Source: Alphaproteobacteria bacterium (GTDB taxonomy: Bacteria > Pseudomonadota > Alphaproteobacteria > Micropepsales > Micropepsaceae). From it: 64,000 nt of DNA. This document shows positions 39,530-39,587 of the stretch, piece after piece. How positions within the stretch are numbered: the first letter of the stretch is position 1; every line of letters starts with the position of its first letter. The DNA lies in the NCBI GenBank assembly GCA_028871345.1, contig JAGWNK010000001.1, positions 62,001-126,000 of the forward strand, read 5' to 3'. The position numbers and the translations under genes were made by a program. The notes under the pieces were generated by a model that was not told the DNA's origin, ran no database searches, and was given only the letters and a program-made list of their open reading frames with translations.

Positions 39530-39542
39530 GCCGGCCTCCATA

Positions 39543-39574
39543 TAACCTATAGGTGACATGATACCTATAGGTTA
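39543..39574. promoter_or_regulatory. Symmetric operator of the XRE/membrane-protein operon
   Basis: TAACCTATAGGT (39543-39554) and ACCTATAGGTTA (39563-39574) are perfect 12-bp inverted arms around GACATGAT. Each arm contains the self-palindrome ACCTATAGGT, with centres 18 bp apart, on nearly the same face of the helix. They flank the -10 box of the minus-strand promoter, an arrangement that fits repression by the XRE protein. Confidence 0.75.
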
Positions 39575-39587
39575 CATCAAGGGTCAA
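39558..39587 (-). promoter_or_regulatory. Sigma-70-type promoter of the XRE/membrane-protein operon
   Basis: On the minus strand TTGACC (39587-39582) and TATCAT (39563-39558) are separated by 18 bases. The start of transcription would fall near 39551, inside the downstream operator arm, with a leader of roughly 20 bases before the ATG at 39529. Confidence 0.6.

Follow-up and report, generated by a model that had tools for sequence, protein, structure and literature searches.

A conserved, putatively autogenous double operator on the promoter of an XRE regulator and membrane protein operon in an alphaproteobacterium

The operon and the doubled palindrome on its promoter

The window (the whole stretch of 64,000 nucleotides that was analysed) carries a minus-strand operon in which a GGAGG sequence precedes the gene for a 151-residue membrane protein, followed by that for a 69-residue XRE regulator, with the ATG of the second gene lying 5 bp past the stop codon of the first (Table 1). 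On the same strand, the pair is flanked by what we take to be glmS upstream and rpiA downstream. An earlier note, written from the letters alone, had described the products as a 69-residue XRE regulator and a four-helix membrane partner, and the open reading frames, a match of the regulator to PF01381 (HTH_3; 56.3 bits against a curated cutoff of 23) and the structure model of the membrane protein (pLDDT of 90.4, four long helices) agree with this. Its placement of the −10 box TATCAT in the middle of an inverted repeat, with the −35 box TTGACC 18 bases upstream, was borne out by a promoter scan, which on the minus strand matched the two boxes to the consensus at 10 of 12 positions across an 18-bp spacer. 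One further 10/12 site, on the plus strand, was found in the scanned 1.1 kb (shuffle mean, 0.2). The spacing between the −35 and −10 boxes is 18 bp in the window versus 16 bp in five relatives of the same family.

Table 1. Positions of the operon features in the window, and of one operator from another locus
Feature	Position	Strand	Basis or remark
−35 box TTGACC	39582..39587 (read 39587-39582)	−	promoter scan and sequence
Operator site 1, GTAACCTATAGGTATC	39560..39575	−	between −35 and −10
−10 box TATCAT	39558..39563 (read 39563-39558)	−	between, and partly inside, both operator sites
Operator site 2, GTCACCTATAGGTTAT	39542..39557	−	over expected transcription start; centre 18 bp from that of site 1
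Shine-Dalgarno-like GGAGG	39535..39539	−	read directly
Membrane protein, 151 aa, four long helices	39074..39529	−	D87-E88 conserved in helix 2-3 loop (predicted inside)
XRE (Cro/C1-type) regulator, 69 aa	38859..39068	−	recognition helix SRKTINTVEN
L097/L115 operator	L153 minus strand, 2457 of reverse complement	−	before five tandem membrane genes

The promoter is overlaid by TAACCTATAGGT-N8-ACCTATAGGTTA at 39543-39574, the arms of which (39543-39554 and 39563-39574) are perfect 12-bp reverse complements around an 8-bp loop, as the earlier note had stated. Its further claim that each arm is itself palindromic does not hold for the whole 12-bp arms, but it does for the 10-bp palindrome ACCTATAGGT contained in each of them (39545-39554 and 39563-39572). 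Read on the minus strand, the element consists of GTAACCTATAGGTATC AT GTCACCTATAGGTTAT laid over TTGACC-N18-TATCAT. It can thus be described as two 16-bp palindromes resembling GTNACC-N4-GGTTAC, whose centres are 17-18 bp apart and which fit between the −35 box and the start. Since the two sites extend from just behind the −35 box to about the start, their place is one fit for repression.

With up to one mismatch, ACCTATAGGT has two matches in the window, both belonging to the operator, against a shuffle mean of 0.23 and two or more matches in 3 of 100 shuffles. It is also the only 10-bp palindrome in the window that is repeated at a distance of 12-30 bp, and any such repeated pair arose in 2 of 150 windows simulated with a first-order Markov model, so that the probability of a chance occurrence, judged from the window only, is about 1-3%. 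The window has three perfect 12-bp inverted repeats whose loop is 20 nucleotides or shorter, the operator among them. In the 3.9-Mb genome the double site is single-copy, both for exact arms with a 4-14 bp gap and for an 8-bp gap with up to three mismatches. We thus regard the doubled palindrome as uncommon, the window by itself as not decisive, and conservation as the decisive evidence.

Conservation and distribution of the double site

A search for the membrane protein in 147 related genomes returned matches in six, namely the window's own genome and five others with proteins at 25-34% identity. The double site, with a spacing of 18 bp, is present in all five of these same-family relatives. 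It lies directly upstream of the membrane gene in four, and in the fifth (G081), whose assembly is fragmented, it is found on a different contig, followed by the start of a membrane gene. The check put forward in the earlier note, a search upstream of homologous XRE/membrane pairs, therefore gave the site in 5/5 relatives. Between the window and five relatives (four whose membrane proteins are 25-34% identical, plus L049), the 34-bp operator is 88-97% identical; the 40 bp further upstream are 25-35% identical in ungapped comparison with the same five. When 96 genomes of the order were scanned allowing up to three mismatches, seven had a match: the window's, the five relatives and G056, which has three mismatches and whose locus holds no XRE of the window's family by profile search. 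A reversed control pattern matched 9 of the 96 genomes, and three-mismatch matches therefore mean little.

We also scanned a collection of 84,980 species with the pattern TAACCYNNRGGT-N7..8-ACCYNNRGGTTA, and searched the loci with a profile of eight XRE sequences, at a domain threshold of at least 40 bits. The scan found 62 places. In 45 of these an XRE-family domain lies 0-1.7 kb downstream on the correct strand, and elsewhere in the 462,944 bases fetched no domain reached 40 bits. Four further places (L074, L078, L097 and L090) bring those belonging to the XRE/membrane system to 49 of 62. The L074 locus is contig-cut, with the membrane gene and XRE following in L116, and L078 is the G081 contig mentioned above. 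At L097/L115 the operator is followed by five tandem membrane genes of ~210-243 residues and then by an XRE gene 3.4 kb downstream.

The XRE-linked operators read GTAACC-N4-GGTNNY-N2-GTMACC-N4-GGTTAC. The search pattern is flanked by G...C in all 45 of them, in two of the four further system members and in none of the 13 unrelated places, and a TTGAC sequence starts within 14 bp upstream of it in 39/45 linked operators. Centre-to-centre spacing is 18 bp in 42 of the 45 and 17 bp in the other three, although the pattern allowed only 17-18 bp; because they were imposed by the pattern, neither this spacing nor the YNNR centres of the 62 matches are independent evidence. Most of the named hosts belong to Sphingomonas, Brevundimonas, Caulobacter or unclassified Alphaproteobacteria, with one case in Luteibacter, a gammaproteobacterium. 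Adjacent, co-directional genes for an XRE protein and a multi-pass membrane protein recur across genomes, the window pair included. The usual order is membrane gene, then XRE; it is reversed in L056, where the membrane gene follows the XRE, and in L059 the XRE comes first and no partner was identified. The nearest possible XRE start overlaps the stop of the partner by 1-11 bp in 35 of 43 loci, a figure that the choice of the nearest start favours.

The 13 places outside the system comprise six in Chitinophaga together with L069, L048, L073, L095, L100, L057 and L066. In the six Chitinophaga loci (L051, with the operator at 2534, L071, L080, L091, L098 and L101) the double palindrome is a look-alike, an operator of an unrelated regulator family; that of L051 lies between presumed HxlR-like regulator and NmrA-like genes, which are divergent. 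Candidatus Aegiribacteria (L069, operator at 1512) likewise has a double operator of look-alike kind, with TTGACA, ahead of what reads as a RelE/HigB-like and HigA-like pair.

The spacing was also followed at XRE loci found without the operator, where doubled palindromes were sought 14-25 bp apart. This gave 18 bp at five loci, the window included, and 17 bp at L024, and a spacing of 17 bp was read by eye at L017, L022, L025 and L027. With free spacing, TAACCYNNRGGT-N0..28-ACCYNNRGGTTA matched in 4 of 385 genomes of the class, the window's and three GC-rich ones, of which one has 17 bp with the hairpin-like L095 sequence and two have other spacings; a profile search found no XRE of the window's family at the three GC-rich loci. 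The test says little on spacing, as only one true operator is present in the 385-genome sample.

In Caulobacter ginsengisoli (L090) a double site precedes a membrane gene, and the 8-kb locus contains no XRE. The closest XRE of this genome (63% identity, against 45 and 35% for the other two) is encoded on another contig, just behind GTAACCTTGACGTTAC, which is one mismatch from the palindrome. That a separated XRE gene and membrane gene share one site argues that the XRE binds it; single sites of this kind are no commoner in this genome than the reversed control (8/8 versus 12/11). Brevundimonas intermedia (L136, 1501 and 2283) carries another double operator at a distance of 9 kb from the first, and a second RK-type XRE gene lies 0.8 kb behind this additional operator.

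Single-site targets in the window genome were searched with GTNACC-YNNR-GGTTAC, allowing one mismatch and using a reversed pattern as control. The search returned the operator's own two sites and two further places, and the reversed control gave the same counts. One of the two, GTGACCTTCAGGTTAT (L106 at 1501, G000 contig C20; also in G482 and G483), was rejected as an operator, as it lies within a tRNA-Met gene, and the other is a lone site. A looser pattern, applied to six further genomes, was no commoner than its control in five and gave 14/8 versus 12/7 in G483. Neither the window genome nor these six yielded another type of target gene. A mobile origin of the system was rejected: viral contigs had no match to the operator, plasmids had none to the XRE or the membrane protein, and three weak phage matches were at 44-53% identity.

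The XRE regulator, its specificity and the membrane partner

Among solved structures, the best match to the window XRE is a PbsX-family regulator (PDB code 9k3w; E = 2e-13, residues 8-66), a protein of 65 residues that resembles it but is of the RQ type in its recognition helix. For the CylR2 chain 1utx, phmmer aligned residues 6-66 with E = 2.2e-10. A single close XRE is encoded in the window genome, the other three matches being 30-37% identical. With the XRE as query, PADLOC and PHROGs matched nothing beyond generic regulators; the membrane protein drew one weak match in PADLOC (E = 0.0063) and none in PHROGs.

The recognition helix and the operator were compared in a contrast sample of 15 RK-type and 15 RQ/RN-type XRE loci of the same taxonomic group. 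A GTAACC palindrome matching at 11/12 positions or more was found within 1 kb upstream at 12/15 RK loci versus 0/15 RQ/RN loci (Fisher 1e-5, relatedness ignored), whereas a palindrome like GTAAAG-N4-CTTTAC was found at six of the 15 RQ/RN loci, all SRQ, versus none of the RK loci (Fisher 0.017, again ignoring relatedness). The three RK loci without a full palindrome within 1 kb are L023, where the operator lies 3.4 kb upstream, ahead of a five-membrane-gene operon, L026, and L126, which has a half-site only; L124 and L125 have a single full palindrome, not two. Of the 15 RQ/RN rows, three (L028-L030) fall within long open frames and are not membrane pairs. At three SRQ-type pairs (L034, L041 and L042), two GTAAAG-N4-CTTKAC sites, counted by eye, are located 37 bp apart upstream of the membrane gene, at the −35 box and near the −10 box, which is a different operator layout.

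A Foldseek search with the membrane protein model returned no match at E ≤ 0.001, and comparison of the model with VIA yielded Z-scores of up to 7.2, which in helical bundles may mean a common arrangement only. An assignment to DUF2178 (PF09946) was rejected at 10.8 bits against a curated cutoff of 22.8. For the short partners, DUF6442 (8/26, best E = 0.0029), DUF350 (2/26, best E = 2.8e-5) and other Pfam families, which appeared singly, were not used. We aligned 25 short partners, 12-27% identical to the window protein, with the window's own. Among these 26 RK partners, D87 is common to 26, E88 to 24 and R94 to 24, in the helix 2-3 loop, and this loop and the N-terminus are predicted to be inside from their basic residues. 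The domain of the short partners recurs in the C-terminal portion of the longer ones (hhalign 99.4%, E = 1.9e-21). A D-[E/D] pair stands at the equivalent place in 10/10 RQ/RN-type partners. Overall homology between RK and RQ partners is not claimed, hhalign having aligned only 17 columns around the DE motif with a probability of 8.9%.

A probable autogenous switch and its alternatives

Judged from its sequence and conservation, TAACCTATAGGT-N8-ACCTATAGGTTA is a conserved operator linked to the XRE family of the window and placed on the promoter. We consider it probable that it serves a two-gene switch as autogenous operator, in which case XRE dimers on both palindromes would repress their own operon and the membrane protein would be the likely input. 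The self-regulated switch proposed in the earlier note is thus supported: self-regulation is very likely because all five relatives keep the double site and because the scan leads back to the XRE/membrane system at 49 of 62 places. The 69-residue XRE would bind each 16-bp palindrome as a dimer, and two neighbouring dimers, probably binding cooperatively, would occupy the DNA between the −35 box and the transcription start. The bound dimers would exclude RNA polymerase, and by keeping it off the operon would repress itself. We infer dimer binding, repression and cooperativity, and we hypothesize that the membrane protein, tied to the regulator by gene linkage, is the signal input. An envelope signal might cause the four-helix protein to alter the free or DNA-competent XRE, by sequestering or releasing it. 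The outcome would be a membrane-coupled on/off switch without phosphorylation.

An RNA hairpin, acting as terminator or attenuator, or a chance palindrome would also give an inverted repeat, since a perfect one can fold, and four of the 13 unrelated scan matches (L048, L073, L095 and L100) do look like plain inverted repeats. We regard this as highly improbable for the window, where the site lies between −35 and start and tracks helix 3 of the XRE; moreover, at five XRE loci found without the operator (L017, L022, L024, L025 and L027) it still consists of two distinct palindromes whose centres vary. A toxin-antitoxin module, in which the membrane protein would be the toxin and the XRE the antitoxin that represses the operon, is an unlikely reading of the pair. 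Two-gene autoregulated operons with an XRE protein are typical of such loci, and L069 joins a look-alike operator to a RelE/HigB-like and HigA-like pair. The authors' reply accompanying Makarova et al. 2009 allows, in the portion available, that membrane-protein pairs could be new toxin-antitoxin systems (PMC2701414). The same portion, however, leaves XRE-membrane pairs out, stating that a type II system with a membrane component had never been detected (PMC2701414). The two genes stand at separate loci in C. ginsengisoli, one XRE is common to five membrane genes at L097, and neither the XRE (E 1e-10) nor the membrane protein (E 1e-5) had a match among 72,556 plasmids.

Slightly less likely still is an activator or dual regulator resembling the controller proteins of restriction-modification systems, with one site for activation and a second for repression. 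According to the excerpted text on C.Esp1396I, its 35-bp operator has two adjacent dimer sites with TATA centres (PMC4041747), and C.AhdI matches the window XRE weakly in sequence (E = 4.5e-4). Both controllers are, in that excerpt, small XRE-type dimers, as predicted for the window protein, with two adjacent TATA-centred sites within 35 bp (PMC4041747). In the window, however, both sites fall within the core promoter and none upstream of the −35 box; as both are downstream of −35, there is no activating site. No restriction or methylase gene was recognised by eye among the open reading frames listed beside the window pair.

The autogenous switch has its closest parallel in CylR1/CylR2 of the Enterococcus faecalis cytolysin, where, in the passages available, a promoter kept off by a small XRE repressor needs a suspected membrane protein for its induction (PMC3709268). 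In both cases a small XRE-type repressor is encoded beside a membrane protein, and the two regulators are homologous, with RQTIN in the recognition helix of CylR2 versus RKTIN in that of the window XRE. As described in the available passages, CylR1/R2 are divergent from, and control, a toxin operon, whereas none was seen beside the window pair, and CylR1 has three predicted membrane helices against four in the window partner (PMC3709268). Pairs of XRE and membrane proteins (YoaS-like, PA2784-like and PA4076-like) were listed by Makarova et al. 2009 as a conserved association; this is the same two-gene association of XRE repressor and membrane protein, and the portion available describes no operator (PMC2701414). 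Autoregulation of XRE proteins through palindromes is common according to the accessible part of a 2025 catalogue, which defined autogenous operators by comparison and found 9 of 10 tested to be bound (PMC12565409). By the same accessible part, the catalogue used 200 bp upstream of the XRE gene only and so misses operators one gene further upstream, such as that of the window at ~0.5 kb; it may nevertheless hold a related motif (PMC12565409). Our literature search gave no description of this operator among the matches listed, and ACCTATAGGT occurs in at least four papers, unrelated by title. As far as the literature listed shows, novelty lies in the operator and its geometry on the promoter, in its tie to a single XRE-membrane family, and in the contrast between RK and RQ types.

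As a tentative extension, it is possible that an XRE protein and a four-helix membrane protein with D-E in an inner loop form a general phosphate-free signalling unit, in which the loop would dock the XRE and one residue of helix 3 would largely set the operator of the subfamily (GTAACC for RK, GTAAAG for RQ). The difference between RK and RQ types suggests that the specificity of small XRE repressors may follow a readable code. XRE-membrane pairs have been a recurrent association without known function since 2009, set aside in the available portion of that survey (PMC2701414). A conserved operator, present in dozens of other bacteria, gives them a concrete handle and would offer a direct assay for what the membrane protein senses.
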